Origin: Sarcocystis neurona
Lineage: Eukaryota; Apicomplexa; Conoidasida; Eucoccidiorida; Sarcocystidae
Length of the DNA: 64,000 bases
Assembly: GCA_000727475.1 (NCBI GenBank)
Contig: KL647312.1
Span: 124,001-188,000 of the forward strand
Reading direction: 5' to 3'
In this document: piece by piece, positions 28,665-63,800 of the stretch
How positions within the stretch are numbered: the first letter of the stretch is position 1
Layout: every line of letters starts with the position of its first letter
Position numbers and translations under genes: made by a program
The notes under the pieces: generated by a model
The model's input: only the letters and a program-made list of their open reading frames with translations
Databases searched by the model: none
Told to the model about the DNA's origin: nothing

Positions 28665-31600
28665 TTACTCGCGCGAAGCCAGAGCGTCTTCAAATATTAA
28701 AAAAAAGTTCATACGTGGATAAGAGACAGCTGGAAAGAGAAAAGTGGGAAGAGGAAGAACAACGGCCGCCCAGTACGAATGTATTTGTGCATATGTACAC
28801 TTCTTTATTCAGGATACACATGGACGCCTGTGTATACATATATACCTGTTAATCCATGAAAAAGTGTGTCTATGCCCATACGTCTGCTATATATACGAAT
28901 ACATATATATACATATGTATGTGTGTATGTGTTTGTATGTATATGTACACGTGTATCTGCCTGTATATATTGGCAGTAGAAATGCGTCCCATCCGCACAG
29001 CTACGCACACACGTTCTAGACACGCGTGTACAAGCATAGAGAAGAGTCCCTCATATGTGAATATATATATACATGCATATATATATATATATGCAGTTCA
29101 TGTGTAGACTTTTCTGCAATTTTGTTGATAGATCTCTATATTAATTCACGTTTTGGCGTGTGTTCTCACGTACACACATATAGAGGGCATGACCAGCAGC
29201 GAATCAACGTACCGGCTTTGATGAGAGGCTTGCAGGAGATGCGGCTTGCGCAAAGGAGAACGGAAGAAAAGTTTTTCGTGGACAACTGAGAAATAACTTC
29301 TTCAACGCAGCGATCGTACGCGCTCTAACGAAACAGACAAATGCACCAAGAGAAAGGGGAGGAAAGCCAAGTTCAACCGACGAGAAAAGAGAGGGAAGGG
29401 GGAAAAAAGAGAAGCAGGTCTTCGCGGCAGTCAAAGAGCATTTGCGGCAACGTGTCATTCGTCGGCGCTTTCACGCCGCGAAGAAAACGAAGGACGAAGA
29501 AGAAGAAGAAGAGGGGAAGGGCAAAGAGCCGCAGAGGGAAGAAGAAAGGAGCTTTGCCACACGTCAACCACGCATGGCTGAGGTTGAAAGGAAAAGAAGA
29601 GAAGAGACGAATTTGGTGAAGAAGAAGAAGATGAAAAGAGGAAGGGAAGAAGAGGAGGGGAGGAAACCACGGAACGCCGCAGTCGAACGGCTCTTCTCAA
29701 GACACTCATCACAGACACGCAAAGAGCACGGAGCGGAAAATTAAGTAGAGGAGTCGGAAGATGAAAAAGGAGGAGAAATTGAACAAGGGGAAGAAGTGAG
29801 AACGTTTCCCTCTACAGCAGGAGGAGCATAGTAGGACGTCCCAAGCCCAGACGACGCACGTTCGAGGCCCCGTCGTGAGTGGCAGAATGGAAAGCGAAAA
29901 GAAGAGAGCGAAAGGTCGGACCGAAATTCGTTAATTTGAAGAAGAGGAGCGGAGACACAAGACGAACAACCAGAGGAAAACACCGTGAAGTGGCAGAGAG
30001 AAGCTCTTTGAAGCAGATCAGATAGTTGAAACGGTGAAGATTTATTTACCTGCGCCATAAGTCACGTAGACATATGGATACGCAGATATATATATATATA
30101 TATTTATATGCTTCTACACAGATATGTATACATGCATATTATTAGATAAGTGTACAGATGTACGCACTGATATATAGATATATGTATACCTTTTTATACG
30201 TATGTGTACAGATATATGTATATCTCTGAACGTTATACTGGTCGCCACACATAGGGTCATGTAGAAATATGTATATACAGAAAGATGGAGAGACACACAA
30301 GTAGGAAAACCAACTTTAGACTTACTTGTACGTCGTAGAGGTCAGCAGCGATGAGAAGCTCGAGCAAGTTCTTTACTTTCGCTTCTTCTCCTTCTTTCTC
30401 TTTTGGCGGGGCTCCTGCTTCTTCCTCTCGCCCGGCTGCCTCTTGAAAAGCAGAGAAGGAAGACGAGGCCGAAGAGGTAGAGAACGAGGAGGAACACGGA
30501 GAAGAGCAAAAGGAAGAAGACGGAAAGGGAGAGGAAGCGGAGGACGCGGAGGCAGCGGCAGCCGAAGTGGCTGAAAAGAGCGCGCAGCTACAGAGACAAA
30601 ACGACCACAGCAGCACACCAACGTACGGCAAATTCTCGTAATTCCAGTTCTCCACATCAAAAGATCCGCTCGCTTCTTTTTGTGGAAGGTCATCACACGT
30701 CTCTTCTGCAAAATGGGCCGGTGTAACTGCACTTCTGTGTATATATATGTACCTGCATGTGTGGGCGTATCTTTCTCTCTCTCTGTGTGTGTTTCTCTGT
30801 ATACACACATATACCATATATATACGTATATGTCTATATTTGTGCAAGGAGTCCTGGCAGTCATAGTACACCCACCCCTACATCTACCTCATATGAGTTT
30901 ATATTTCTATACATTTCTCTTTCGCGGAGTACAGGGAGGAGTGTATTCACATACGTGTGTGTGTGTGTGTGTGGACTTGCTCCTAGCACATATACATAAA
31001 TATCCATGCATGTGAAAATGCACGTGTGCGCATTAGTTTAGGAAAAGCAGCGCACCTACAGGCCTACAACAGTCTTCTTCACGTGCTGATTGAAGCCAAC
31101 TTCTCTATGTGGATATACGCATCTTTGTAGATGAGAGTGACCTCCCTACATACACGTGGGTAGAGATGTTTGTATGTACGTGTGTCTGCATAGGTATGTA
31201 AATGTCTTGTAGATATGAAGAAGTGAATAATGACACACAAGACTGCGGAGGAAGAAACGCAGATGTATGTCGGGCAGACGAGCGGTTCAAATAAACGTGT
31301 GTATCTGCACTTCACCATTTCGTAAAATAGAAGTAGCTTTGTTCCAATATAGAGGCCAAGAAGTTGCAAGAGTACACACTTGCTTATTCGGCTACGTGTC
31401 TTCATCCTCCACAAGTTGAAAAGTACCACGAGGCAGCTATATATGTAAGTGGCTAACTGTACGGTTGGAACCACCCATGTATATCTCAATATATATATAT
31501 ATATACACGTACTTGCATATTTTGTATATACATATATATATAATGTGTGTATATATATATATAAACACACATATACATGTGTGCATACACATATGTACTC

Positions 31601-33531
31601 CATATCAATGTACAAACGTATATCTTTTTATTTTATGTGTGTATATATATAACGTGTATGTATATATGCAAATATATATGTATATATATACATGTGTATT
31701 ACGTATAAATACACACGTGCGTACTCGAGAGTGTGCAATATATATGGAGATAGAGATACACGTCTGTCTGCAGATGTATACTTCTGTGGGCACTTCCCTA
31801 CATATATATATATATATATATATGCGTATCCGTGGATTTACACCTGTATACAAATATGGCGCTGTGAGTGTTGATGTATACATATGTGTCCGTAGAGAGA
31901 GAGATACGCGTATACATTTGTATACATGTCAATATTGCAGGAGGTGAATATATTTATCTATATAATATATGTATATATATGGATTTGCCCAGTAACAGAC
32001 ATCGTCCTTCCCTCGTTCTACATGAGTATCACTAATGTTCCTAGCAGATACGTACAGAAATACATTTGTATACAAATATACATATCTATAAAACGCTCTT
32101 TAGGTCTATACGTGCTAAGGGACACGTTAGTGCTTATGGAGCGCCAAGAGAATATACAACACTACATCCACGTACACACGCAGGTATATATATGTACTTT
32201 TCAAAATCCGCATCGACGCATACCTATATATATATACATATGAGTGTGTCCCTACCTTTCTACGTACTTCCATACATCTCGATAAATTGACAGCCACACC
32301 ACACCATATATATACAGATACGTATACACCTATCTATCCATATATATATATATATATGTATCTTTAAATATCTACGTAAGATATGTCCTTACGCAGCCAC
32401 ATCTTTTCATATATATACATATACGTATCCACATATATATATATATATATACATGTATACTTACGCGCATATGTTTGTGTGCGTATATAGACACATCTAG
32501 TCAGAGATCCTTATGAATCTAATAGTGTCCACATGCGTCGTTACGCCTTTCTCTCTCTCTCTATATATATGTATATATATACTAATACGCATTTTGTTAC
32601 GTATATACACATATACATCTACATCTTTGTGCAGATTCCTACGCGTGTCTACCTATTTGTCTGTCTACCCATATATATATAATTGTGTTGCTCTGTGTGT
32701 TTAGAGATGTACGTAAAGCCATATATCTGTGAGATATTGGTAGAGATAGCGTTTTATATACATACATGTCAACTGTACTTCGAAGTACATATATTTATAT
32801 GTGTATATATTTATAAGTACGTATCCACGTATACGTACAATAGGACGGCTGCAGATATTTGTATATCTGCATCTACCTATATATATATATATATGTAGCA
32901 GTATTCATATATACGCGTAGTGGTCGTCCTGCATACCCACACATAGATCTATATGTATTGACAGGCGTACACATCTGTATATTTCTACGCATTTATATAT
33001 ACATATGCAGAGAGAGAGATAGGTTTCCACGGACGACATTCGGGGAGATGAAAAGTAGTGCAGACGCATAGACACATACACACATAGATAATAGATATAT
33101 ATATATATATGTATACATATATGTCTATATATGTATATGGACGTACACGTGTCGGTGTGCGTATCCGTCTCTATGGGGAGGTATATATGCACCTGTACTG
33201 GCGCAGGCACTGCGAATTTCTCAGTCCATCTGCTGGTCGATATTATCCTCGAAGCATCAAAGTTGTGGACATTTCTTTTATACAAAGAATTCATTTATTG
33301 CTGAAGAAAATGTCCAACTACATCCATAGACTCATATTTCTGTGGCCGCAGATCCCGTATCACGCTATACGTGTACACATATGTAAGTACGTACACGTGT
33401 TGTCCATATATGTGTAGTTTTATACGCACGTGTACATATACGCAGATATGTAAAAAGAGGAATAGAGAAAGATCTATATATTTTTGTATAAATATAGAGG
33501 TTCTGTCAACTAGGTGAGTACCTCTTTATAC

Positions 33532-33564
<33 letters not shown>

Positions 33565-36500
33565 CCGACGAACACGAGTCAGCGTACGACTTGTTATTCT
33601 CTTTCTGTGTGCGTACTCGTCTGTGTGAATGAATTGAAGTAGGTTTTCTAGAGCTCCCTTCGTAACGCCAGAAGCATCTGATAATTGCAGCACTATCCGC
33701 CTCCTCTTCCTCTGCGGCTCTTGCTGCGGCTCCTGCTGGTGCTGCTGTTGCTGCCGCCGTAGCACGCCGCTGCTGTTTTCTCGTTGCTGCGGGAAACGCA
33801 GCTCTTCTTCAGGACTTTGCTGTTGTTGTCCTTCTTGAAAGTAGCCTTTCAACATTGCAGCAAAGACCTGCAAATTTCGTTGCACCCACACGCAGGGCTC
33901 CAAAAGCAGCTGCAGCAGCAGTAGCAACATCGGCACGGCAAACGAAGAAGGCAAAGAGGGAGCAGGGGCAGTCACGTCAGCAGCAGGGGTAGTCACGCCA
34001 GCACCAGGGGCAGTCACATCAGCAGCGGGGGCAGTCATACCAACAACAGAAGGAGTCACATCAGCAGCACGGACAGGCCTAGCAGCAGCATGCAACAGCA
34101 GCAATACAACGCCGCAGCAATGGCAGCAGTGGAAGAAGCAGTGCGTGTCTGAGGCTGGAGCAGCGGCCGAAGAGGAATAAGCAGCAGCAACGGAAGCTGC
34201 AGGAAATGAGATTGCAGCAGCCAAGCAAGAAGAAGAAGCGACAATAGTAGCGGCAGGAGGCTCTGAGGCTGCAGCAGCCGAGGAAGAAGCAGCAACAACA
34301 GCAGCAGACATTGAGGCCGCAGTAGTCAAGGAAGATGAGGAAGCGGCAGCAACAACGGCAGCAGAGGCTGAGGCTGCAGCAGCCGAAAAAGAAGAAGAAG
34401 CAGCAACAGCAGCAGGCGTTTGAGAGAAAGGGAAAAAGTGCTAAGAGCAGGGGAACCAGTTCACAAAATAGAAGTTGGGAAGAAAAGAAGCGCAAGAAGT
34501 GGCGCGCACTCCTCGTAACGTTCACAGACGATAGAAGGAAATATATAAATTCCTGCTAAGGCAGCAGAGCCGACCATTTGGTCTCATTCCTGACCCAGAC
34601 CTGAAGAGGTGAACTGCGTAGGTGAGAAGTAGAAAGACACACACGCGTCGATACCTTTTCGTCCCTACACAAACAGGCGATGTACACAGGCATGTGGGGA
34701 AGGAGAGAGACGGACAAAGAAAAAAGAAAAGAGAAACGCGTATGCATACATACATATATTCACGTGGCCGTGCGCATACATATATATATATGCATGGATG
34801 TAGAAAGACAGAGAGAGAGATGAAGAGAGAGAGAAAGAAGGAGAGAATACAGAGAGACAGAGCTACACACACGTATGCGTAAGCAATATATAGAGAGAGA
34901 TACATATACATATGTAGCAATACAGATGCGTATGCATCCACGTTTCTCGAGCATATCCGCAGTAATATATTTATATGGACAAGTAGAACACACACACACA
35001 TATCAGTAGATATTTATACATCCAAGCATGCATATATGCAAAGGTGTCGTAGAAGCAGCACAAAAACGCAGAGAGGCGTACATAGATTTTTGTGGGCATA
35101 TGGACTAAGGAAGAGGAGGGAAGACTGCCGGCGGCAGCAAGACAGGTGTACAGCAGAGTACGCAGATAATGTTTAATCTTCCTCCATATAAACCGACCGG
35201 CCGTTTTTCTTCGTTTCACGAAGTGTCGTGCGTCTCCCTTAAGTGAACGAGACAGGGACGAACCCTTTTTGGCCGCTTCTCAGTCATTTTCACTTTCCTC
35301 GTTCTGTCTGCTGTATCTCTGTCTCTCTCCCAGTCCTTCCTGTCTCCCCACCGCAGCAGAACTTCGCCGCAGGAAGGTGGCCCTTCCTCACCAGGTTTCT
35401 CTTTTTCTGCGTCTCTCTGTGCCCCTCGCGTTCTTCCCCATCTGCTTCCTCTGCAGCAGCTGCAAGACTCCAGATACCACCTCGCTGCTGGGGCCTCTCT
35501 GTCTCTTTCTCTTGCACGCCTGCTCTTTTCCCTTCTCCTGGGAAACCAAGGTCGTCCACAGTCTTCTTCTTGAAGGACTCGTGGTAGACCCATGCACCAG
35601 CCGACAACGTCTCGCAGAGGAAAATTCTATTCTATCTGTCTGAGACGGAAGGTATCTTCCCCAGTGTCTGCTTGGTGGCTTCTTCTCTCTCTTTCGCTCC
35701 AAGATGGAGAAAGAAGGAAGCGCAACGCCATAACAAAGAGAAAAAGCGAAGGAAAAGAACAAACTTCTACGAGCTAGAATCTACAAGTGTTGCAAATGGG
35801 GACCGAAGAAGACGCAGAAAGCTCCTCTGTCTGTCGCGTTTCCTCCCAAATTGCTGTCTCTTCTCTCCCGCTTCCTGTTTTCTCTTTTTCTGTCTTGCGC
35901 TCTGTGCTAGAAGAACAACTGCCACCATTTCTTCTGTCTCTACTCTCCCCCACCGTTGCTTCCTCCCTTTATGTTTCTGTCTCCGTCCTCTCATGTGCTT
36001 CTGGGCCTTTCAAAGAAGGAAAACAGGAGAGGGGCTCATTTTCACAGCGATCCTCCTTGTCTACTCTGCCCTCACAACGTCTGAGTCGTTCTGCTCTGCT
36101 TTCTTCTTCCCTTCTCTGGGTCAGTACTCTCCCAGTTTCTGCTTCTTCTTTTTCTGCTTCTTTTGCTGCTTCTTCTTCTGCTTTTTCTTCCTCTAGCGCA
36201 TTGAGCCATTCCCCGTCCTCTTGCTTCTTCTTTCTTTCTGTTTTGAGAGTACTTTTCTAGGCTTCTCGCACGTACGTCCGTCTCCTCCCTCGTACCTTGG
36301 ATCTGGAGACTAGAAGCAAACGATTTGCCCGATACGTCTCTCCTTCGAAAAGAATATCGCAGTCATCCCCCTGCAGCCGGACGAATGCTGCCACTTCTTC
36401 GACCAGAGAAGTTCCTCGACCGCCTTCGTATTTGCTGCTGCTGCTGTCGTCGACGTAACAGCTGCCGTAGCTGTAGCTGCTGCTGTTGGTGTAGCTGCTG

Positions 36501-39500
36501 CTGGTGCTGTACGAGCTGCCGCTGTCGCAAGTGTAGGACTCGGGAGCTGTCGCTGCTGCTGCGGCTTGTGCTGCTCCTGCTCCTGCTGCTGCAGGGGAGC
36601 GAGCCGTCGAAATCAAAGAGGAGGAGGCAGAGGAAGAGGAGGAGGAAGACGTGGAGAAAGAGAAAGAGGCAGCCGAGTTGTCGATGGCGTTTCTCCTGCC
36701 TCGTGCAGCTGCCGCTGCTTCTGCCGCTGCCGCGTGTAATCCGGCTTCAGCAGAGGCTCGACGCGCGGCGACAGAGATCACAGCAGCAGTGGCACCACCC
36801 GCGGCAACAGCAGAAGAGAAAGACGAAGACGGAGTTGAAGTTTTTGCAACGATAGAACGGTTAAACAAAGGACTTTGCAGCAGCTGAGACTGATTTCTTC
36901 CTGCTGCAGGACCCGCAGCGGCAGCAAGCAACGGGCAGTCCATCAGCACTCGTATCCGCAGACATCCGTCGGGCCACAGCAATGCCTTCACCTTCTTCCG
37001 AGTGCTGACTGAAAAACAAGCAGGAAAATCAGGGAAGAAAGCAAAGGGCGGACCCGCGCGTAGGGAGAAGAGAAGGGAGAAAAAGGGATACAGAAGGAGC
37101 AGAGAAAAAGAAGAGAACGCGGAAAACGAAGGAGCAGAGAAGGAGGAAGTAGGAGACGAAGGTCAGTTCCACAGGGGGAGAGGGGAAAAGTTGTAGCAGT
37201 AAAGAGAGTAAGACCTCGCGAAAAGGAAGAAGAAGAAACAGCGGCGTGAAGTAGCGACGAATTTACTATCAGCAGACGATGGAGACTCAGCAGGAGAACG
37301 AGCAGCAGAAGCAGAGAAGTAAGAGAAGCACAGGCAGAGCCAACGGAAGCAGAAGCAGGAGCAGCAGGAGAGGCAGCAGCAGCGGCAGAAGTCGCAGAAG
37401 CAGCAGCAGCGGAAGCATCGACAGCAGCTATACGAGAGAGGCGACACGCGGACGACGACTCTGCTGTTTGCTTTTCTCGCCGTGGTCTGCTGCTTCCTGT
37501 TTGACGTTGCCGCTCGCAGCAGAAGGAGAAGCAGCACCCGCTGCAGAAGCACCAGCAGTAGCAGCAGGCGGGGTAGTGGCTGCAACAGCGGTGCCAGCAG
37601 CGACGCCGCACGCAGAGGCTTCTTAGGCGTCTACAGATATATTCAAGCGTGTGACACGAATTCTTCAATTCTCCGCGTGATGGGAAGGCCCAGACTGAGC
37701 AGAACGTAAGCGTGAAAGAAGTATGAAGACAACAGTCTCTTGTCAGTTCTCTACCGGCTCTCATCACTGGGGCATATCTGGTGTGGTTTCTTGTCCATCT
37801 GCTGCAGAAGCATATATGCGTCTCTGCTGGTTAGGTGGGAGAGAGAGGCAGGCAGAAGTGCGACGTCTGTATTCTACAGGTTAATCTGCCTGCGTTGCTG
37901 CGCTCTCTGTGGAGCTGCGTTGCGGTCAACTTGCCGGCTAATTTTCGAAGAAACGCAGCAGGCCTGTGTCTCTCTTCGTGCACACACATATGGCGCAGGG
38001 AGGTTCACTTCCTTTTCTGCTGCTCCTTCGCTCTTACATACTTCCAGATGTCTACGCACACGTGCGACAAAACATGCGTCTCTCTACTGCGGCAACGGCT
38101 GCTGAACGAAGAAGAGGGAAAAGAGAAAGAAGAAGGCAGAAGGAGCCGCACATGTATCTCAAAAAAAGAGAAGAAACAAGGGTTCCGTTCGAAAGATCAA
38201 CGCAGATATGTACGTAAGCAAATACCTGAACTTGCGCTCTCGGAAGAATATATATATATATATATATATATGCGCAGCCCGGCTAGCGTAGCTGAGTAAG
38301 ACGCAGTTGAATTCAACCGAATGTAGACGCATCCCCCACGGCACCCAGGCGAGCACTCCTCCTGTATCTCTCCTTTTCTCTCCTTTTGCTTCATCACCCA
38401 GACACATTCACAGCCACTTGTGTCTCTCTTTCTGTCTATACATATGACCCAAGGAAATTCACGTTTACCTGCGTCTACCTCTGTAAACGTGTATCACGCA
38501 AATACACTTACAATTACGTCTATCTGTGTGTCTGTCTAGCTCTCCCTCTCTCTTAATATAGACACATATATATAGAATGCAAGTACATTCGAAACTACCT
38601 GTGTCTGTGTGTGTGTGTGTCCCTCTCTCCAATATATATGTATTTCAAGGTACCTTCACAACTATCTGTAGTTAATCTGAGTAGATATGGCCACAAATAA
38701 ACAGGCGCAAATAGCTACGACGTACATCTAGGGAGTCAGCAGCTTCATGCGTATATACGCGTCCACAAATATTTCTTCGTGGTGAGGGGAATAGTGTTTC
38801 TCTGTCCCTTTTCTGCGCCGACGCATGCACTGATGCCTACTACCTGTCTACTTCCCACCTCCGCCTCTCTGTCCCTCTTTCTCTCTCTGTATGCATATGA
38901 ATCTCCCACAAGCAGCCAAAAGACACCTACGCTTGCGGACAGCAAAAGTATATATATATGTGTGTTCATATAGATATATATATATATAGGTTAACAGAGA
39001 ACAGCTCCAGCCTACGTACATATATATACGTATATCTATTTGTATACGTACGCAGACGTATTTACCACCACTCAGAAGTGGGGCACACATATGATGCGCT
39101 ACATAACTTATTCGCGTAGATGAACATATAAATATGTATGTGCACACAGTATGCAAGTATCTAGACATATGTATATATATACATAAATGAATTTATATAT
39201 GTGTGCACACAGTACTCACGTCTACATATATATATATGTACATCTGTGTATATGTTTGCACAGAGTATCAATTCCCTTGCTGTTTGTTTCGCCCTCTATG
39301 TGCGGCTCTGGTATTGTTTCTCCATGTGTGTATATACGGAGAAGACAGAGACAACAGACCGTCTTCAGTTGGCCACCAGGCAGCGATAAATCTTCAGTAC
39401 AAGTCGCACCTGCACAGATGAAGATTCGTAGATATTCTGAAAGTCCATGCAACTTTGAAGCAGGTATGTATCGCTTTTCCTCAAGGAAACTAATGCAGTA

Positions 39501-42500
39501 AAGAAAAGTGGGAGAAAATACTATTACCTTCACAGAGATGCGTAGGCCCATACCCTACACCCGGTTCATTTTTCGCGTAGAGGTCGCTATCTTCGTATTG
39601 AATAATATTGTTTCTCTTGACGGAAAAGCGCGTGTTTCCTCCACCAGCCGCAGCAGCAGCATCTGCGTCTACGACAGACCAGCGGCGCACACGGCGATCA
39701 CCGCGCAGCACACGCAAGCAGCAACACCAGCCACACATCACAGCACATCAGCCACGCAAGGAGCAGCAGCAGCAACAAAAGAGAGAAAGAAGCAGCGGCT
39801 GTACCAGCAGAAGCGGCGGCTGCAGCAGGACTGCGTCGGCAGCGGCAACAGGGCTGGCATCGCTGGGAGACGCAGCGGCTGCAGGAGAGAACTAACAGCA
39901 GCCACACAAACAAAAGAACAACACCCACACACGCGCAGAGGCAGCAGAACCAGCGGCTGCAAGGCAGTGGCAGCTTGAGCAAAATTTTGTTCTCTTTGCA
40001 CACTTCTAAGGAATGCCCCACCAACGCGAGTAACAGCAGCTGAAAGGCGCGGGAATGCCTTCGGCGTCAGCAGCAACGTCTTGGCGTCAACTTCAATAGC
40101 AGGAAGTGCGCAGCAATGGGAGGGACCGTGTTATGTGAAGAGGCAGCCGGTGCAGCAGACGCCGTGGAAAATCAACAGCTGCGCTTCCACAGCAGCAGCA
40201 GCACAGTAGCAGAACGAAGAAGAAGAGAAAGGGGCAGCAGCAGAGCGAAGAAGAAGAAGAGAGAAGGGCACCAGCAGCGGAAAAAAGGGAAGAAGAACGG
40301 GAAAAGCAAGGGAGAGAATGGCCGCTGTGGAGCACGAGGAGGAGGGGAAGAAGAAGAGAAGGAAGAAAGGACAGGAAACGTAAAGGCAAAGCAGCACCCG
40401 AACAACGAAGGCGCCCATATTGGTGCGCGAACACTGCAACAGCGTGCCGCCGTGTTCCACGCAGCGAGAGCAGCATTACGGCCGCAGGAGGCAGTAGCAT
40501 GAGCGATGACTGAACAGGGCAGGAGTCGTCTGCTCTGCAGCAGCGGCAGCAGCGGTTGTAGAGGCTAAAGCAGCAGCAGCAGCGGTTGCGTGAGGTACAG
40601 CAGCAGCAGCAGAGGTGGTTTGGCCTGCAGGTCCAGTGGCCCGGCTAGTTGTGGGGCAGCAGCAGCAGCACTTCCCGCAGCCGAAAACTCCTCTTCTTTT
40701 TTCCATACAAAAGGTAGCAGCAGCAGCAACTGCGTCGTATTACGAGCAGCACACCGTCGCTTCACTGAAGTTGCAGCAGGAGGGGCAGAACTGCAAAGGC
40801 AGACAAGGATACAAAAGAGCCGCGCAGGAAAGTGCGGCTTCTCGTCAGTTACTCAGAAGCAGCAGCAGAAACCCACCGGTGTTTGCCGCAGCAGCAGCGG
40901 CAGGGGACAGGGCAGCAGGGTGTCTCTTGAGAATTTGCAACTTGTAGTGAACGACCAGATCTTCTTTTAACTGGCAATCCACCATCAGATATAGTTCTAA
41001 GGCTCCGGCATTTTTTGCATCGCCGTAGGGATATAAACGCAAAAACCAAATGCCGACTTTTTCGTCTCCGAAGACGGGACTGTCGATGTACTGGTCTTCC
41101 TCTGGTGGCCGCAGAACTTCAAAGTAGGCAGCAACAGCAGGCAGCAGCATTGCAGGAGCAGTGGGATGCAAAGGGGCACCGAAGAAGAGACGGATGGAAC
41201 ACAGCAGCGGAGAAAAAAGGACACAAAGGAAGAAGAGGAAGAGAAAGGAGCAGCAACAGCGGAAAAAAGGAGGGAGAACGGGAAAAGGAAGGGAGAGAGC
41301 GGCAGCAGTAGAGCAGGAGAAGCAGGAGAAGAGAAAGGACAGGAGAAGTAAAGGCAGCAGCACGAGGGGAAGCCGAAGAGGCAAGACGTTCTTCAACCAG
41401 ACGCAGAAGGAGGAGAAAAAAGGGGAAGATACAGTAGTACCGGAAGAACACATTCACAACGCGGAAACGAGCAGCAGCAGTACGACGTCTGAAGGGCAGC
41501 AGCAGCCCAGTAAACGGGGCTGAGACAGCAGGAGAGCACCAGCACTTGCAGCAGCACAAGCTTTGAAGCCCAGCTGCGGGAGATCAGCACCGCGATAAGA
41601 AAGACACGCAACAGCAGGGCCCGCAGCAGGTTACAAGAGCAGCAAAGAAACAACAGAACAGGCGCGACCAGCAGTCGCAGAAAGGCAGCCGTCGTAAAGG
41701 AACAGCAACAGCAGCCGCAGGACAGACAACAGCAGCAGCGCAGTGTGTGTGTGTGTGTGTGTGTGTGAAATCCTTGTGAGCAGTGCTGAAGTTTTCTTTC
41801 TTCTTCCTTGAAAAAAGGGCGAGGCTACATCATCGGTCTGCATGAAAAAGCAAAGAAAGACGAGACCTCTGTACACCAAGGTAATATTCGTAAGTGGGCG
41901 GGGCGGACCTTACTTAATATACACATATATATATATATATATATATATTTTAGTGTCTGCACATGTACTCTGCTATATATATGTATATATATACACACTT
42001 GTGTGGACTATTTTCCCCACATATCGTATAAAAATATTTATGTATAAGAGTACCAACTAACCTGTGTGGACATGCAGCAGATTCGGAGAGACAAATATAT
42101 ATACACGTATAACCATCTATATTTATACGGACAGAATGGCCTGTGTGTGCGCGTCAGATGTGTGGACAGGAAACAGACGGCCCCCCGAGGAAATATAGAA
42201 GAGAGGGACAGCAGGACAAGAACGTAGGTGCGCGTAAGGAAAGACAGACAGAGGGAAGGCCAGACCGAAGTTGGGGAAGACTACCTCCTCTGCGCAGAGG
42301 CAGAAATACGACACGGGCGAAGTGCACACATATCTACAGAGGCAGAGTGATACTGCTACAAGCGAACAAAAATATACAGAGGTATGTAGAGCCCGAGAGA
42401 AAGAGAGAGAGAGAAGAAAAAAAAAAACCTTTACACACATATAAGACAGTTTCGTCAATCCGCAGGTGAGTCTACGTTTGAATCGGAAGGGCTTGTCTGT

Positions 42501-43861
42501 AGGAAGGTCATATATACATATATCTATGCATCCATGAAAAGTCAGAGGTAAACGAGTACCCACACACACATACACACATGCGTGCATACGTCCATATACG
42601 CGTACGTACATGCATACATACATACGTATATACGTACATACGTACCTGCACACACACATATATATACATACGCACACATGTAAGTACATATACGCATACA
42701 TGTATGCAGACACGCGTGCATATATACACACGTGGGCACATACACACATACGTACAAACATACATACATACATGTGAACGAACATACATACACACGTACA
42801 TACGTACACATACATACATACGTACATACGTACATATAAGCATATACATATATGCATACATGTATACAAACATACATACGTCCGTACGTACATACTACGT
42901 ACATACGTACACCCATGCAGACATATATACATATGCACATACATAAGTGCGTATATGCATACGTCTATACATACGTGCGTCCATATATGCGCACGTGAAC
43001 ACATACACACGTAGATAAGTACGTACATACGTACACACACACATACATATACACGTACATGCATACATATATACATACGTGGGGAGACACACATACGCGG
43101 ATACATTCGTACAGACACATATAGATACATATGGACGAGCGCCTGTGTGGGGAAAAGTGACTCTGGTTATATGGCTACTTTACGCAGCTGCAGATGCGCA
43201 AGAAATCTTGAAAGTTTTTTTGTTGATCACGTCACTCAGCAGCTCCCCTTCTTTCGCTGTAGACTCTCCCTAGATCTATACGGGGGAAGTATAGACGTTG
43301 CCAGCAAGAGACGGGGCAAAGCAAGAAATCGAGGTAGATAAACGTACACCTAAGAAAGCAGCACCATCACATAGGTACGTATATCGATCGAAATATATGC
43401 AGACATATATATGCATGTATGTATAGCCGGTAGTCTATCTGTGGACGCGAAGGGAGAGAAAAGACGGAGAGAGAAAGACGAGAGCGTCGCCTATCATCTT
43501 TCTTGACAGCAGGGAAGACCACCTTTTTCGGGGAAATGTTCGTTGTGGGGAACTCGATTTCCGTCTCCATAGCAGATGACGGAACCAAAAAAATTGCGCC
43601 ACGTTCCTCATGCACACGGATACAGAGAAGAAGTGAGACGCAGAAAGATCCAGAGGAGAGACAGAGAGGAGAAGAAGGGACGAGGACGGGGAGACAAAGA
43701 GGCAAAGAGCGATCTACCCAGAAAAAGAAGAGAACTCTTTGATACAGCTCTTCGAATATTAGACTATCATACATACGAATAGCTACTGCCTTAAAGCTGC
43801 GGTCACGTATATGCCGGGGACATCGATGAGTCTTCTCTCCGTACTTTCCTCGTTGGCGCAC
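28665..43861 (-). CDS. MATH-BTB (SPOP/BPM-like) protein, ten or more exons over 15 kb; 5' end unresolved
   Basis: Exons read on the minus strand, high to low: 43861-43718, 43606-43523, 43269-43184, 41116-40877, 40090-~39929, ~39668-39528, 37008-36296, 33867-~33588, 30441-30326, 29324-29213, 28729-28665 (TAA 28665-28667). Phases agree at every junction except between 43184 and 41116, where a short exon must be missing. The MATH domain is seen as NKKTFKISCAS, then YIDSPVFGDEKVGIWFLRLYPYG (the W...RLYPYG signature), then LELYLMVD...VVHYKLQILKR, and closing LLWPDGCLRIRVLMD. A Ser/Tyr/Ala-rich linker follows. BTB is seen as DDCDILFEGETYRANRLLLVSRSK joined to VFAAMLKGYFQEG, then GALENLLQFIHTDEY, then VKNLLELLIAADLYDVQ joined to SAYDRCVEEVISQL. 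A BACK-like tail ends SYPRMNFFLIFEDALASRE. By analogy with SPOP/BPM proteins it may present substrates to a cullin-3 ubiquitin ligase; that role is inferred from architecture only. Domain identity is strong; several exon edges (~) are provisional. Confidence 0.7.
31440..33570. repeat. Two-kilobase block of TATA/CATA microsatellites in the BTB intron
   Basis: Nearly continuous TATATA, CATATA and TACACA tracts with short unique islands fill most of the 3.1 kb intron between the exons at 33588 and 30441. The open frames here (Tyr/Ile/Cys-rich on both strands) are artefacts of the repeats. Confidence 0.85.
33588..33867 (-). other. Exon: middle of BTB with Gln-rich insertion
   Basis: The acceptor AAATTTGCAG leads in phase 0 directly into VFAAMLKGYFQEG, continuing the BTB fold without a gap. 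A Gln/Glu/Arg-rich insertion (about 45 residues) precedes RRRIVLQLSDASGV and GALENLLQFIHTDEY. The donor is provisional (AGTC|GTACGC), chosen because it gives phase 1 to match the next acceptor. Confidence 0.7.
36296..37008 (-). other. Exon: end of MATH, Ser/Ala linker, first half of BTB
   Basis: Largest exon of the MATH-BTB gene (713 nt, enters in phase 1, leaves in phase 0). The acceptor is CTTGTTTTTCAG and the donor AAG|GTACGA. It opens with STRKKVKALLWPDGCLRIRVLMD, the last MATH strand. It continues through Ala- and Ser-rich low complexity and a Ser/Tyr repeat (SSYSTSSSYTNSSSYSYGS), and ends with the conserved BTB start CDILFEGETYRANRLLLVSRSK. Confidence 0.75.
40190..41370. repeat. Duplicated purine-rich (+) intron-end segment, two copies
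   Basis: About 200 bases at 40190-40390 and about 200 at 41165-41365 share the same order of GAAGAAGAGAAAGG, CAGCGGAAAAAAGG, GGAGAACGGGAAAAG-AAGGGAGAGA and AAAGGACAGGA elements. On the minus strand these are the pyrimidine-rich 3' ends of two successive introns, each finishing in TTGAAG|TT. Confidence 0.65.
40877..41116 (-). other. Exon: core of the MATH domain
   Basis: The acceptor ACTTTGAAG|TT is preceded by roughly 200 bases without any AG, a strong AG-exclusion zone. The exon encodes LRPPEEDQYIDSPVFG, then IWFLRLYPYGDAKNAG, then LELYLMVDCQLKEDLVVHYKLQ, and ends ACCG|GTGGGT in an Ala run. The order of motifs matches TRAF/MATH strands. Confidence 0.75.
42549..43135. repeat. TACA/TACG tetranucleotide array
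   Basis: About 590 bases of (ACATACAT/ACGTACAT)n with GCATATA and CACACA interruptions. It creates a spurious 335-codon minus-strand frame rich in Tyr, Met, Cys and Val. It lies in the intron between MATH-BTB exons at 43184 and 41116. Confidence 0.9.
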
Positions 43862-44162
43862 CTCAAGAGAGAGAGCGAGGGAGACACACGCAGAGGTACA
43901 CGGATACAAAAGTCCACACCAAGTCAAAAAGTACCCCAGCAGTGTAGAGCTGAATAAGCGACCAGTCTATTTCCTTCCATATATGTGTGTGTGAGCTTGT
44001 GATCTTACATATGTATATACTGATAGGCAGATAGACGAGCATATACACAGACACAGACACATGGAAGGGGAGGCCGGCAGACGAGAGGGGACGACTCAAC
44101 AGAAACAGAGAGAGAGAAGAGAACAGAGAGCAGAGAAGTGTCTGCGTTATCTGGCAGTGGCC

Positions 44163-45383
44163 TCAGGACTTTGCCGTGTGCAAGAGAATGTTTTTACATT
44201 TTTTCTTGGCGAGGAGCCAAATATCGAGAAACTGAGTCAGCTTCCAGTGAGCACACACACGGCGCTTGTTGACAAAACTTGAGAGGTCAAAATGGCGGTA
44301 GGCAGGAGAGAGCAGATGGCTGCGATGTGGGGCTTTGAAGTACGTCTCTCCTCTTTTTTCTTCCTCCTGCTCTCCCTCTCCCACTCTTCCACTTCTATTG
44401 CTGTTGCTGTTACGACTGCTGCTGTGTGTGGTCCCGGTGTCGTTGACGGCGCTGTTGCCGTTGCTGCTCGTGTTGTTCCCCCTGCAGCTCGTGCTGCTGC
44501 TGCCGCTGGCGACGCGATTGCCTCCGTCTGGACTGCTCCCGTTGACGACGCCTCGGCTGCTGGAGCTGTTGTTGTTACTCGCGCTGCTGCCACTGCCTGT
44601 ACTTCGACTGCTTCTGTTATTTCTGCTGCCTCGGCTGTTGGTTCCGCTGCTCGTCCCAGCCGAAGCACGCACGCTGCCCTCAACAGACTGCTGCTGCGGC
44701 TGCCGAGGCACTCCTCTTCCTTCTCTGCTGCTGCTGCAGCCTCTTCTTCCTCCTCCTCCTCCGTTTCCTCTTCCAGCCGCTCCAGCAGCAGTACTGCCTG
44801 CTGCTCCTGCTGCCGTCTCTCGCAAAGTTCCCCCAAAGGGGACTGGCAGGCAAGCAAAGTCCATACTGCAGTCAAAACAGCAACGAGGGTCCCTGCCACC
44901 GCTCCTGGCTCTTGCCGCGTTGCCTTTTCTACTGCTGCTGCCGTTCGTCTTCTTTTTTTTGATGCCGAGTTGTATCCTGCCAGCTGCCTCTTCTACCGCT
45001 GCTCCCACGTCTCCTCCTCTCCACCGCTTCTTCTTGCTGCTCCCGCCGAGTCTTCTTCGTGCTGCTCCTGCTTCTTCTTTCTCGCGCGGCGGGTCGCTGC
45101 AGGGCAGTTCTACGCGTATTCCTCTTCGTACACTCGCTGCCGCTCCCCCCGTAGCTGCTGCTTTTCCTGTGCCGCTGTCACTCCTTCATCTGTTGCGACT
45201 GCTCTCCTCCTGCTTTATTGCCTTATTCCAGCTGCTGCCGGGCTAATGCTGGTGCTTCGTCTTCTCTCCCAACCTGAAGCTTCCTGCTACACTTTTTCTG
45301 CGCTGTTACCCCCCCCAAAAAGACACATGATACGGTACATGCCACTATTCGTACTACTGCAACGTACGTGCAGAGGTGTTTAA
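44163..45383. other. CAG/CTG-rich block open in several frames on both strands; possible 5' exon of the MATH-BTB gene
   Basis: On the minus strand one frame (45008-44163) is Ser/Asn/Gly-rich and ends with HFDLSSFVNKRRVCAHWKLT. Another (44899-44237) is Ala/Glu-rich with ERRQQEQQAVLLLERLEEE. On the + strand an Ala/Ser-rich frame runs 44292-45383 and another 44335-45246. Because the repeats keep many frames open, none can be chosen by length. The minus Ala/Glu frame has the most natural composition and sits just upstream of the first MATH-BTB exon I can place (43861), so a 5' exon is plausible but unproven. Confidence 0.35.
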
Positions 45384-54802: not shown

Positions 54803-57800
54803 CTAGGCCTTCCCAAGAAGCTGCAGAGGTAATTCGCTTGGAAGACAAGCCTTGGGGTTTTGTGTGAACCAGCGGTGCTGCAGCGCAGCTGCTGCCGAAA
54901 TCCGCTGTTGTGGATCGAGCTGCAGGAGCTGTTCCAGCAGGTCTACCGTGTCGTTACAGCAAAAGGGGAGAACAGTTCGAAGAGACTTGGGAGATGTGTG
55001 AGTAAACGGAAAAAACGAAGGAAGATTTTCTGCACCCCCCCAACCATTCCGTGAGATAGCATCGGACGAAGATGAAAGGGAAGAAGAGGAAGACGTCTGG
55101 CGTGTGCTGTTGGACTGCGAGGAGACAGACGAAGAAGAGGACGGGGTGCCACGAAGAGAAAAGATGCGGCTCAGCTGGTCTACTTCATTTGTTCCAGGGA
55201 AAAGAGGACTACCTACGAAAAACAATCCAGGACCACACGACAGACTGCTGCGGACCATCACGTAAATAGATCGATAAAAAACACCGAGAAGAAAAAGCTG
55301 ACACGTACAGCCTTGTTGCTGCGTGTGTGTATAGTTAATGAATCTGCGTTTATAGCTGTAGTTACACATGCTCTTTCGTACATAAAGAACCCCACCACGG
55401 CACGACTAAAAAAGAAACTTCACAACTCCATGTATGGGGTACAGTTGTCTCTTCGCCTGTACATACATATGTATATATAGAGAGAGACGACACAGAAAGG
55501 TGATCCGACATATACTGTCTTGGAGCGCCGCGCACGCCCGTTTCTGCTGGAGGCTGTGCTGCCGAGACGCAAGACAAAAAGACGCACTGGGTCATACAGT
55601 GCGTCACCATACGACAACTACCCACGCCCACGTATACACACACATACGGGTATGTACATATAATATACATTTATATATATACACACATATACATATACAT
55701 ATCTTTTTGCATATATACATATATACATATATATATATATACGTATTTGTACACATACACATACTTACTGTATTCCCGCATATACATACACATACATTTA
55801 GTACGTACGTGTATACGTACGTACACTCAGGCATATCAAACAAATGTATGTATTCCCGTGAAGGCCTCTTTCCATAAATGTACGTACAGAGGCATAATCG
55901 TACGACCACACACATATGCCAAATCCTAACAGGCCTGTGTACACACTCGCCCAAGACAACGTCCCCAGAGATCTCCGCAGAGGTCATTATGAGCGCCCGC
56001 ACACACATGTAGACATGTATTTATATTTCCACATGTATGACACACAGGATACGCACACACGTGTAGACAAGTATTTACATTTGAAAATGTATGACTCCAC
56101 GTATGTATACTTTTACGTGCAGACTCGTATACTTGTACGCATACACATATATAAATGCAAGGATGAACAGGTACACAGCGAACCTACGCAGTCACACGGA
56201 TGGGTGCTCGTGAGCCGCTACAGGGATATTCCAAACGAAAGTCATTTTCAGGTGCGCCACGAATACGAGTAGCCAGAACAGTCCGCAAATGCTGACGTGT
56301 GTAAACGCCACGGGGGGTGTTCAAGTAGCATCACCACAAGCATATGATAGAAAGTTATGAATACCATTATGCGTGTATATGGAGATACTCTGTCGTGCCC
56401 ACAGCACACGTGCATCCGTCGGTACTACAGAGCTGGACATACACACATATCTAGCCTGTAGATCACCACGCATATACACACCCGTTATGGGGTTGACCCC
56501 ACATATGCGTATATATGGAACGTGTCTTGCGTAGAGGCTGTCGAGCAGACAAAGAGAGACGAGGAGACAGAGAGAGACGCAAGGAGAGACAGGGAGAGCG
56601 AAGATGAAGTTTCCTAGCAGCAGAATCTGTGAGACATACAGAGAGAGACGAAGAGAGGAACAGAGATACAGAGAGAAAGAGAGAAGATGAAGTGTTCTAC
56701 CAGTAGAGTCTGTGAGACACAGAGAGAGAGAGGAGGGAAGAGAAATACAAAGAGAGACGGAGACGGAATATGAAGTTTCCTAGCAGTAGAACCTGTGAGA
56801 CAGAGAGAAACAACGAGAGAGTGAGACAGAGAGAGAGATGATGTTTTCTCGCAGTAAAGTCTGTGAAACAGAGGGAGAGAGACAAAGAGGGAAAGAGAGG
56901 TGCAAAGAGAGACAGAGAACGAAAAGACGAAGTTTCACCTGTGAGTAACTCCGCCATGATGCAGCCGACACTCCATATGTCAACAGCAGGACCGTAGCGA
57001 TCGGCGCCGTATAGCAGCTCTGGTGGTCTATACCAGAGTGTCACTACTTTCGCTGTCATAAGATCTTTCCTGCTCACTGCCACAGGCGCTGCCTTGACTC
57101 CTGCTGCTCCCGAGTTTTCTGCTGTTGCTGCTCCTGCGCCGGCGGTTCCTCCTCCTTCTCCTGTTGCGCCTACGTGCCCTGCTGCTGCTCCTGCTTCCTC
57201 TCTTGCTGACGGCGCTGCTGCTTCTCCTCCGCCTCCTCCTCCACTGGGTGTCGTCCGTACCCGTCCCTCTCCTGCTAACGCAGCTTTCCCCTCTTCTCCT
57301 CTTCTCTGATGATGAACTGCCGGTGTCCCTTCCCCACGTGCAGCTGAAACAGACACAACCGCAGTCTTGCTTGCGGAGTTCTCCGCTGCAGCACGTCGAG
57401 CTTCTGCAGTATCTAGACCTGCTGCTGCTGCTGTTCTCTTCCTGTCTGCTGCTGTTGCATCTCTCTCTGACAAGGACTCGCCACCTTCTGCTGCTGGAAG
57501 CTTCGCCTCTGCTGTTGGTGTCGCTAAGGGTGACGGAGTAGGCGAAAACGTCTGCCCGACATTTCCTCCTCTTCCCCCTGTCATTCTTCCCTCGCCCCCT
57601 TCCCGAGTCGCTGCTGCAGCCGGTACTGCTCCACCCGAGTGAGGTCCTGCTGTGGCGGCTTCTCTTGCCTCATCCTTCTTTTTCCCTTCTCCCCTTTCTC
57701 GTTGTCCTCCGCTGCTGCCGCCAACTCCTCGTTCTCTCTTCGCTGCTGCCACAGCAGCTGCTGCTGCATCCGGTGGAGCCGACAAAGCGGAATGCGCAGC

Positions 57801-58823
57801 AGCAAGTCCAGCAGCAGGGGCAGACGCTGATGAGAGGGGAGTCGCAAAGCCGCGAGAAAGGCCAAAGTCCGCAACTTTACAAATGCCTTTCCCGTTGATG
57901 AAAACATTGGCAGGAGAAAGGTCTCTGTGAATAATATATCGTTCGTGAAGCGCATGCACGCCTTTCAAGATTTGTTGCATGATGCACTTCACGTGCTGCA
58001 CCGAGAGGCGCGTTTTGCTATCAATAAGTTTCTTCAAGTCGCCTTCCATCAGTTCCATCACCAGACATATAAACTCTTTCTCGACATATAAATCCACGAC
58101 GCCCATCACATTCTGTTGCTGCACCTCACGCATTACCTTCAGCTCGCGTATAGTCGTAAAATGCAGCCCGACAGTCCCGGCATTCTGACGCAGGAGCGCC
58201 CGAGATGAAGCTGTTGTCGTTGCTCCTCCTTCTGCGCCGCTGCCTGCTCCTCCTCCTTGACGCTGCTGCTGCAGAAAACTGCTACTGCTGCTCGCCTTCA
58301 CTTTCTTCACTGCTACGACTGCTGCTGTCTGAACGTCGACAGCCTTCTCCACTCGTCCGTACGTCCCCTCTCCCAAAAAAGAATCACACGGGCGGTAGCG
58401 CTGGCTCCCGCGCAGCGCCGTTGCTGCTGAAGAAGAGTAGGAGGAAGAAAAAGAAGAGGAAGCGGGAAGGGGAGACGAGGAGGAGGAGGAAGACGAGGAA
58501 GAGACAGAGGATGAGAAAGAGGAGGCAGCCGCGATGACAGAGGGACGCTGGGGATGGCGAGGAGGCCGCACCTCTGCAGGAGAAAACGACTGCTGCTGCT
58601 CCAGCTGCGGCGCTTCACCACCACACGGCTGCTGGTGACGCTCAGTCGGGCGCTGTCCTCCGTTCAGCGTCTCCTGCGGGGACTCCTGCACCTGCAGCGA
58701 CCCCGAGGGCTGTTGGCGCCGCTCCCTTCCTTCTCCCGCAGCAGCTGCTGGGGGCGTGGAACAGGGCAACGGCTGCGGCCTTCGGAAGTGGGCTTCATCT
58801 TTTACCGCGGAGAAAGAAGACAT
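54803..58823 (-). CDS. MRK: CDK7-related protein kinase, MRK/Crk7 type (exons 58823-56939 and 55212-54803)
   Basis: Two exons join in phase 1, ACAG|GTGAAA to TTCGTAG|GT, rebuilding [18 protein letters not shown] without a gap; total about 764 residues. Subdomains are G-loop GEGTYGRV (151-158), Lys173 in VAVKK, Glu227 in the FTTIREL helix, HRDLSPAN (299-306), DFG (319-321), [12 protein letters not shown] (593-604) and DIWSVGC (615-621). Exon 2 adds [10 protein letters not shown] and [29 protein letters not shown], the IREL helix and the C-lobe end resemble apicomplexan MO15-related kinase (Plasmodium MRK, Toxoplasma Crk7), which by family pairs with cyclin H and acts in transcription and the cell cycle. 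Oddities are Ser303 where the catalytic loop normally has Lys, and about 255 Ala/Gly/Arg-rich residues (329-583) between DFG and the end of the activation segment. A Ser-rich insert also lies between Lys173 and the C helix. An in-frame TGA lies upstream of the chosen ATG. Confidence 0.85.
55640..55830. repeat. TATA/CATA microsatellite in the kinase 3' flank of exon 2's intron
   Basis: Interrupted CATATACA and TATATATA runs lie inside the intron between the two kinase exons. They are non-coding. Confidence 0.8.
56585..56938 (-). repeat. Tandem cassettes at the 5' end of the kinase intron, resembling splice acceptors
   Basis: On the minus strand, units of about 70-95 bases repeat. Each has a CT-rich run ending TCTCACAG or TTTCACAG, then a variant of (A/G)TTCTACTGCTAGGAAACTTCAT. 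Anchors on the + strand are near 56603, 56686, 56770 and 56837, and a shortened version includes the true exon 1 donor (56939/56938). The read-through frame stays open for about 80 codons beyond the donor. Confidence 0.7.
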
Positions 58824-59716
58824 CGAGGAATCACAGTCTCTCTGCGCAGAATTTCTTCACTGGCCAGGTGCACTCGTCAGCGTAGTTATGAGAACATATA
58901 CATATAGGTAGGACGGCATATGTACTTACCGCTATCCAGGATATGTTATACACATATACGTATACTTCTTTTGTAATGCGTAAGGGTGGGAGCTTATATT
59001 TGCATATATATCACTACACCTACATATTTATTAGTAGAAGCACGCGCCAAACATATTTTTAAGGCATATTCATACTCATGCGTAGAGCCCGACCGCAAAA
59101 ATCGATAAACGCCAGCAGGGGCGCATGTTGTCACACAGGTCACCGCATGCGCCAAGTACGTGGATACGTGTGTGCAGTTGAAGAACCCATGTGCGCGGGG
59201 CGTACCCAGTCAGATGAGATGTATCCACAAATACATGTACAGGTGGATGCACATATAAGAAAAGAGTATTAAGGCAGAACGCGGGACGGTGAGGAAGCCT
59301 CGCGTGACGCGGCGTACGCACTTAAAGAATGAGATCTCTCCTCCGTCTGCAGCAACCACAGCAGCACTAGTACTAGTGCACCAGCGACAGCAGACACAAA
59401 GCCGGAGCGGCCGCTGCAATAGAAGCAGCATCAGTAGCAGCAGCGGCAACCGCAGGAGAACCAGCACCAGCAATGCACAACGGACAATCCCTTGCCAACA
59501 AATCTGGAAACCTCAGGAAAACAACAGCAGAAATATTTTTTCGTTACGCCAGAACATGTCTGGCGGGAGCGGCACCAGCGGCACGTGCAAAAGATATGCA
59601 GCAGTGCCGCACCAGCGGACCTCTGAGGCAGTGAAACTGCAACAAAAGTTTGCTGGGATTGATGGGAAACCACAGCGTTGTGGTAGAGGGGGAGACGGAG
59701 AAGCTACTTGGCATCT

Positions 59717-60860: not shown

Positions 60861-63800
60861 GCTCCGTCCACAGCTGCTGCTTTCACTTCCACAGCTGGTG
60901 CTGCCTCAACCTTCAGTTGCTCACCGCACGCGGTTGCTATGGCTGCCACGCGTCTACTTCCGCTGCTGCTGCTGCCACCGCGGGAGAAAATCGTCGAGTG
61001 GACAGATAGGCTTCTCCCATGGTCCTTCTCCGCCTACTGGTACTCGCTGCCAGCGGTGCTTCTGCCGCTGCTGGCTGCGGTGCTGCTGCTACTTTAACGA
61101 CTCTGCTGCCTCCTATCGCGATGCGATTGCTTCTACTCGTGGTAGATACGTCTGCACGCACAAAGGACAGGTGCAGAACTAGTTAGTGTATGTCTCTGCT
61201 TGTCCACGTGCACGTAGTTATACATCTTTGCATAGGTACTCATCTAGATCCACGCAGGTATTCCGCTCTTTCTGGAAAGAGCATGCTTGCATGCAAGGCC
61301 ACTGTCGAGCAGCGGCATATCGATGAACAACTGTATAATTTGTTGTACCCGATGGATGCTGTGTGCACGGAGCTCCGTATTGCCTCAAGCTGCGCCTAGA
61401 GGTACGAACAAGGAGTCTTTTCCCGCAAATGTGGGTGTGCACATTGTTGGAAGAATACAAATGTAGTCGCGTGTAAGGTTTTTTGAAGCTGATGTACTCA
61501 CGTTATCCTGCTCTTTCTGCGTACACATACTCCGTTCTGCATGGTGAATGAAGCGCATGTGTGCCTCCGTAGATGCATAAGTGTAAATTGCTATTCAGTA
61601 GTGATATCGCGTGCAAGCAGGCGCCTACCATTTCACGCACTGTACAGCCGTCTAACAGCATGGTATACGCTCATGTGTCAAGTTGTCGATCCCGAGGCCC
61701 CGGTTCCTGCGAATGCTGTAAGGATCACATCTTCCTGTGCTGTCCTCATATAAGGAATCAACTTCTCGTATTCTTGGTCAAGACAGCATGGAGGTCGGAC
61801 ACCACGGGACCGCGTTTACAATAGACGCCTACTTATTCGTAATTTATTGCTCGGACGGCTGCTTCCGCTGTAGGCGCCCGCTTCACGTCGTCTACTGCTA
61901 CCCCAGCATGAACAGGACAGAGGCAGAATAAAGGTGAGGGAGTCGACGTTTGCTATTTCTAAGATAAAGGTAGATCGGGGTACGTCGAAGGACTCCGTGT
62001 TCGTGAGCTGTCTGCCACCAAAATAGGTGACAAGTTCGTTGCCCCTGTTCTGAAGTACCGCCTGTGGAACGCGAGCCGGTGGTTACGGCTTGTGCACTGC
62101 ATACAGCTGACGGTACGTCATAGGTACACGTTATGCATGTGTGCTTACACTTTCGTGTGCATTCCTTGTACAGATGTGTATGTGTTCTGTACAGGTGCGA
62201 ATGCACTTGTCTAGGCGTGCATACGTAAGTGTGTGTAGTCCAGCCTAGCTTATTACTCGTTTAGTCGGGTACAGGCCTGCATATATATACATGTATACAC
62301 ACGACAAGAACACCGAAGTACAGACGTATATCCGTGTGTGTCGAAGAGCACATCGTGATGCGGCATGTGCACTATGAAAGACAACGAACACTGCTGTGGA
62401 ATGCAGGACTTTTGAAATTCGAATGCGTAGGAAACATTCTTCAGACAGGATTACGATATATTTTTCAGGTCACACATATTTATACGCATCAACAAGACCA
62501 CCGTGTCTGGCTCAGATATGATTGTGTGCCTATGTGTCATTCGTAGAGAGTACATACTTTAAATGCGTGCCTCTCAATGTGGGTATAGATTGCAACCTGT
62601 GAATGCGTGTACGGCGTATTAGGCGCGTATACACGCAAGGGTGTGTCTCGCGATGCGAAATGATCTGAAGCGCTACCAATTCCGACCTCTCTGACTGCCC
62701 AACCACGTACATAGAAGTTGACACGAACATACTTTTTGCGGACGCATACGGATCGCTCATCGACGTCACATTCGCATACAAAACACTCGTATGCTTGAGT
62801 TTGTCACGATTTTGCGTGGACAGTTGACTGCTGTTACGCTGTTACTTTGTGATGCAGCTTTTGTGTGGCGTTCTTCGTCCGTATACGACAGCAAGGCAAA
62901 TGAGACGACGTGCATAAAGAACTTTCTCTCTTATGTATATTTAGGCGGATAAAGAAAGAGGGGGCAAGGAACGGTATCTATGTGTACAAATGTATATCCA
63001 CTGGTATGCAGACGTGCTTGCGCTGCCGCATCGATGACATGACGTGACACCAGAACTGAGTGATCAGCGCAGCGAACGTACACACGTAACACCACGTCGC
63101 TTCTGATCCCTTTTAGTTTGTTGTAGGATGTGTGCACGGGAGGTTACGCAGTGGACAGAAGATCCACCTTGCAGTTCATAAAAGCTCTTCATGGGGCCTT
63201 ATCCTCATGTTAAAAGTCACACCAGCTCCTTTTAATTCATCGTCACGCGTTCGAGTAGTTTGTTGTAGAATGTGTACACGGGAGGTTACGCAGTGGACAG
63301 AAGATCCACCTTGCAGTTCGTAGAAGCTCTTCATGGGGCGTTATCCTCATGTTAAAAGTCACACCAGCTCCTTTTTAATTCATCGTCATGCGTTCGACAG
63401 GAAGGGAGATATGTGAGGCGTGTGAGTAGGCAGGCGTACCGTAGCCAGTATTCTGAAAATCGTGTTTTCGATGCTGCTCAAACGGCCGGGGACCGTGTGC
63501 ATTTGATGACTTCAGTGACGACAACGACAGTTGCAACACTAGGGAATCCCATACTGTGAAGTGCGTCAGCTGTCCCTGCAGTGTGCACCGGCACACCTAT
63601 TCGGTCTAACAAGCCATGATTCCTCAGAAGTGGTCACGTGCTGGTGCGACTCTTGATTTCAAGAGCTGCCTGAATGCCATACACAGGTGTAGAACGCCTG
63701 TATACCGGACAGCAGGTATGAATGACAGCGCATAACCTTCTTAAACCCGCGCTCGTGTAGTTGCCCTTATGCATGCATCTGTAGAGGAGCACTTCTCTTT

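Follow-up and report, generated by a model that had tools for sequence, protein, structure and literature searches.

An eight-exon gene of Sarcocystis neurona very probably encoding a SPOP-like MATH-BTB adaptor of cullin-3 ubiquitin ligases

The contig KL647312.1 of Sarcocystis neurona carries, on the minus strand of the 64,000-nucleotide (nt) stretch analyzed here (positions 124,001 to 188,000; the window), short exon-like pieces among long microsatellite tracts. This raises the question whether they form one gene and what this gene encodes. In a sequence-only reading they had been described as a SPOP-like MATH-BTB gene for an adaptor of cullin-3 (CUL3) ligases. Very probably, the locus is a single coccidian gene whose 8 coding exons specify a SPOP-like MATH-BTB protein acting as the substrate adaptor in a CUL3-RING ubiquitin ligase. 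Support for the proposed identity comes from coccidian orthologues, from SPOP as the best match in the Protein Data Bank (PDB), from the conservation of a phi-x-E motif and from the presence of a CUL3-like gene in the genome; from these sequence comparisons we infer that the protein binds CUL3.

The exons were initially joined by eye, prior to knowledge of any relative. For the identification of relatives, the joined reading was compared with 5.8 billion proteins. Among 990 candidates one match was found, the Cyclospora cayetanensis "hypothetical protein cyc_06472" (P0001), with an E-value of 3.5e-65 and 45% identity. Searches from the Cyclospora protein and from an alignment added four further proteins (P0002, P0003, P0004 and P0005), one of these searches being limited to scoring the 7,989 candidates with the most words in common. 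P0002 is a "BTB/POZ domain-containing protein" of Toxoplasma gondii and P0004 a "btb poz domain-containing protein" of Cystoisospora suis; P0003 and P0005 are unnamed. The orthologue search proposed in the sequence-only reading gave P0001, P0002 and P0004 as apparent orthologues by sequence. Their deposited names go no further than BTB. The nearest counterparts of the window gene are in Cystoisospora (Sarcocystidae) and Toxoplasma.

Two of the deposited proteins appear truncated. The end of P0002 (..LYDVQVRDEQRRSFRHLCYD) extends past the point where the other relatives enter the 3-box, and the protein appears cut after the BTB domain, probably because its gene model runs into an intron. P0001 is without the last MATH strand, which is present in P0002, P0003, P0004, P0005 and the window gene, and ends near the exon 7/8 junction; its gene model is probably incomplete.

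Next, the relatives were aligned to the window using tblastn. With the low-complexity filter off, P0004 matched 8 of 8 exons in colinear order (joint E 8e-70), and with the filter on 7 of 8 (E 3e-57), exon 6 dropping out. Colinear matches were found to 7 exons for P0001, to 7 (filter off) or 6 (filter on) for P0005, to 6 for P0002 and to 4 for P0003; matches overhanging an exon edge by a few bases were counted as exon matches (P0004, and P0003 with the filter off). In the filtered controls, the reversed window gave 0 matches at E <= 0.1 for all 5 queries, and the best E-value in 30 shuffled windows was 1.2. With the filter off, one match each was obtained in the reversed window for 2 of the 5 queries (E 0.023 and 0.054) and the best E-value in the shuffles was 0.26. 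Since P0004 is colinear over the exons while the reversed and shuffled controls are near-empty, the exon matches are not due to chance. These alignments establish, at the level of sequence, the exon chain and its conservation in coccidia. A P0004 match on the plus strand (8870-8974) was weak (E 0.27) and was set aside as chance.

The joined model encodes 1,665 amino acids (aa), with GT/AG borders at 7 of 7 introns, consistent phases and no internal stop (Table 1). The compatible phases and the microsatellite setting described earlier were confirmed, the latter with AT-, GT- and ACAT-type repeats among the exons. The ATG at 44864 is the sole ATG in the open frame of exon 1 and is the putative start codon. 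Residues 122-163 of P0004 aligned at 44324-44199 in exon 1 with 62% identity, and P0002 and P0001 also match there. The splice of exons 1 and 2 yields KKFLRP, with the counterparts NRFLR (P0002) and RRFLR (P0001). The 5′ boundary of exon 3 is our own choice and tentative. An alternative frame of exon 3 as the last MATH strand was dropped, as the relatives match the present frame. Exon 4 aligned with P0002 at residues 327-351 (64% identity) and 400-439 (59%), the corresponding values for P0004 being 72% and 44%. In exon 5 the identity to the relatives was 32-35% across the entire exon and 50-75% at its end; the exon 5/6 junction is tentative, with uncertainty in the 3′ boundary of exon 5 and the 5′ boundary of exon 6. 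The start of exon 8 was 66% identical to P0004 (536-564) and 62.5% to P0005 (381-404), and the tail of this exon has basic patches (KRRR).

Table 1. Predicted coding exons of the MATH-BTB gene and a repeat in its first intron (positions in the window).
Feature	Position	Strand	Evidence or remark
Exon 1: low-complexity N-terminus and first MATH strand (..KRRVCAHWKLTQFLDIWLLAKKK)	44198..44864	-	donor T/gtaaaa; outside 28665..43861
Exon 2: MATH core (LRPPEEDQYIDSPVFGDEKVGIWFLRLYPYGD..LELYLMVD..VHYKLQIL)	40877..41116	-	75% identity to P0002 and P0004
Exon 3: conserved MATH block QYEDSDLYAKNEPGVGYGPTHLCE	39528..39668	-	69-79% identity to P0001, P0002, P0003, P0004
Exon 4: last MATH strand (VSTRKKVKALLWPDGCLRIRVLMDCP), ~170-aa A/S-rich linker, BTB first half	36296..37008	-	tblastn, Pfam BTB
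Exon 5: BTB with phi-x-E motif (VFAAMLKGYFQE), Q-rich insert, ..LENLLQFIHTD	33591..33867	-	tblastn P0001, P0002, P0003, P0004, P0005
Exon 6: BTB end (KNLLELLIAADLYDVQ, donor gtaagt)	30326..30441	-	tblastn P0001, P0002, P0005; P0004 with filter off only
Exon 7: predicted 3-box helices (SAYDRCVEEVISQLSTKNFSSVLLCASRISCKPLIKA)	29213..29324	-	68% identity P0004, 44% P0005, 50% P0001
Exon 8: BACK-like end (ARQFANSLSGGTVAAKMLQLLEAVW), 885-aa low-complexity tail, stop TAA	24770..27501	-	outside 28665..43861
ACAT-type repeat in intron 1 (44197-41117)	42564..43078		Tandem Repeats Finder: period 4, 130 copies, 60% matches

The MATH domain is positioned N-terminally and is followed by the BTB domain, as in members of the MATH-BTB family. 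Using Pfam (BTB cut-off 20.5 bits), BTB was detected with 30.8 bits (3.6e-7) in an earlier 762-aa joined reading and with 38.4 bits (1.5e-9) in the piece from BTB to exon 8. Ten single minus-strand frames gave MATH at E 0.048 (in exon 2 the family MATH_2, under the cut-off) and otherwise matches judged to be chance; no Pfam family matched exon 8. SPOP was the best PDB match in both the profile and the Foldseek comparisons. A probable 3-box is seen as a weak block in the profile alignment and as a fold in the model of P0005; the sequence supports the order MATH-BTB-3-box. The MATH and BTB/3-box folds are predictions on relatives, confident for MATH in P0002 and for BTB/3-box in P0005. In the region of the first MATH strand, the W of SPOP is paired with the second W by the profile alignment, and the Foldseek range implies the first W; the first-W register of the fold comparison is tentatively preferred for this predicted strand.

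The phi-x-E motif of the BTB domain has been described to fit a pocket of CUL3, with additional contacts by the 3-box (PMC3616122, available part). Each of the 6 proteins carries F-x-E in the alpha3-beta4 loop, with the same A-M spacing as described for KLHL3. The genome (123 Mb in 74 contigs) contains 17 cullin matches at three loci. The cullin of contig C9 is closest to Cullin-3; its first 94 residues, with the alignable BTB-binding helix, match Cullin-3 with 2.7e-17 compared to 6.7e-5 for Cullin-4A. By sequence, a CUL3-like gene is thus present in the genome that carries the MATH-BTB gene. For the cullin of contig C19, Cullin-4 is narrowly the best match (4B 3.5e-32, Cullin-1 1.1e-28). The third, on contig C43, matches Cullin-3 with 4e-26 and Cullin-1 and Cullin-4B with ~1e-21; these values stem from 4 of 6 fragments and do not tie it to one type.

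With human SPOP (MATH-BTB-3-box-BACK, a CUL3 adaptor) the protein has in common the domain order, the predicted MATH and BTB folds, the phi-x-E motif and, probably, the 3-box. Compared to SPOP, it has a ~170-aa linker rich in alanine and serine between MATH and BTB, a glutamine-rich insert in the BTB domain, a short BACK-like end and an 885-aa tail. The plant BPM proteins (MATH-BTB) have the same domain order. The SPOP pocket residues, which we take to be Y87, F102, W131 and F133, were compared by eye. Y87 corresponds to Y and F102 to Y in the profile alignment, W131 to V and F133 to Y in our own alignment. The W131 position thus seems to be a V in the conserved GVGYGPT block, and the other pocket positions look aromatic. 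Residues of this pocket are named in the available part of PMC12802387. The apicomplexan K13 (BTB-Kelch), whose BTB domain is expected to bind cullin (PMC6650413, available part), shares the BTB domain and has a Kelch propeller instead of MATH. No Kelch match was found in the BTB-to-exon-8 piece, exon 8, P0004 or P0005.

The SPOP-like protein probably selects proteins for destruction via the cullin-3 ubiquitin ligase. The BTB domain would dimerise, its phi-x-E loop and the 3-box would dock the N-terminal domain of CUL3, and the groove of MATH would bind a short substrate peptide. The linker and tail, rich in alanine, serine and glutamine, would be flexible. The basic patches are a weak hint that the protein works in the nucleus.

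Several observations weigh against this interpretation. Of the profiles proposed earlier for a search of the joined exons (MATH, BTB and BACK), BTB passed the Pfam threshold. MATH stayed below it in the window protein (E 0.02-0.05) and in each of the five relatives, where the best E-value, 2e-5, was that of a trimmed P0002, and the BACK-like part is short, with no Pfam BACK match in the window protein or the relatives searched. The structure models, made of relatives from an alignment of 5 sequences, reached a mean predicted local distance difference test score of 45 and 47. The exon junctions are predictions from the sequence. Genome-wide, PF00651 (BTB) was found at five places, all other than the window gene, and PF22486 (MATH_2) at one place on another contig (C27:527780-528142, L006), in a 2,775-aa open frame that is perhaps a USP7-like protease. 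Since these searches miss the exon-split window gene, its uniqueness as a MATH-BTB gene cannot be concluded from them. PF00917 gave no match genome-wide, and no control matched either. Apicomplexans have been reported to possess 2-3 cullins, the third in Sarcocystidae and one Cryptosporidium protein; in its available part, this source does not name Eimeria and does not equate apicomplexan cullins with particular human ones (PMC10927090). The gene is also present in Cyclospora, an eimeriid. Either an eimeriid CUL3 has gone unreported or the partnership is not universal, and the latter may be the case.

This distribution is also consistent with a MATH-BTB protein independent of CUL3, whose BTB dimer serves as a scaffold or in transcription and whose MATH domain is a plain peptide-binding part. 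Numerous BTB proteins have roles other than that of a ligase adaptor, and the low-complexity tail and basic patches would suit such a role. The phi-x-E motif kept in all six proteins with the KLHL3 spacing, the probable 3-box, and the cullin with an alignable BTB-binding helix argue against it, and we consider it unlikely. About as doubtful is an extension of the adaptor reading, in which the protein would be the dedicated adaptor of the third, CUL3-like coccidian cullin, cluster substrates in the nucleus through its low-complexity linker and tail, and act at a developmental switch. One lead is the T. gondii BTB/POZ gene TGME49_266860, not shown to be P0002, in an oocyst-specific transcript table (PMC3278417; see also PMC5376300; both in part).

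A gene of ten or more exons confined to 43861-28665 is very improbable. This interval does hold exons 2-7 on the minus strand in order, and the 713-nt exon 4 equals the upper end of the exon sizes given earlier (65-713 nt); exon 8, with 2,732 nt, exceeds it, and 8 coding exons are supported. Both gene ends had been misplaced. The first MATH strand lies at 44273-44199, upstream of 43861, where relatives match exon 1, and no relative aligns at 41117-44197 in the main tblastn comparisons; a very permissive unfiltered search gave scattered low-complexity plus-strand matches there, up to E 0.002. At the 3′ end, the TAA at 28665 could close a 23-nt exon (28687-28665), which no relative matches. A first model with this last exon was dropped once P0004 and P0005 revealed exon 8, where relatives align at 27505-27428 and the BACK-like end and tail occupy 27501-24770. 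More improbable still is a decayed gene or a set of chance exon-like pieces, as the long introns with microsatellites, the weak single-exon profile matches and the low identity of exon 5 might suggest. Against this stand 8 exons without stop or frame break, the last with 909 aa open compared to at most 248 aa in the other five frames, and the agreement with P0004 in exons 1-3, in exons 6 and 7 and at the beginning of exon 8 (62-75% identity), besides the near-empty controls.

As a class, MATH-BTB adaptors of CUL3 are familiar; new are the corrected gene, the coccidian member of the family and its proposed pairing with a CUL3-like cullin. By titles and abstract openings among the matches listed, no description of a coccidian MATH-BTB protein was found in the open-access papers searched. 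Such a gene is easily overlooked, because its MATH domain falls below profile cut-offs and the deposited gene models look incomplete. For the third cullin of sarcocystid coccidia such as Toxoplasma, no use is described in the available part of PMC10927090; a conserved SPOP-like adaptor gives it a concrete candidate substrate receptor. Ligase adaptors determine which proteins are destroyed, which would offer a route into proteome control in coccidian parasites.

Finally, a search of the genome for a second copy gave 18 matches: 4 are the gene's own exons, and the remaining 14 are weak, none better than E 4e-4. Rfam (gathering threshold) and tRNA scans gave no matches. Upstream of the MATH-BTB gene, a minus-strand open frame at 56700-58856 has a kinase domain by profile (Pfam Pkinase, 4.8e-45). 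It is a putative CDK7-like kinase gene, with CDK7 as the closest solved structure (1.5e-39). At 63114-63397, a 142-bp unit is present in two tandem copies with a 95% match.
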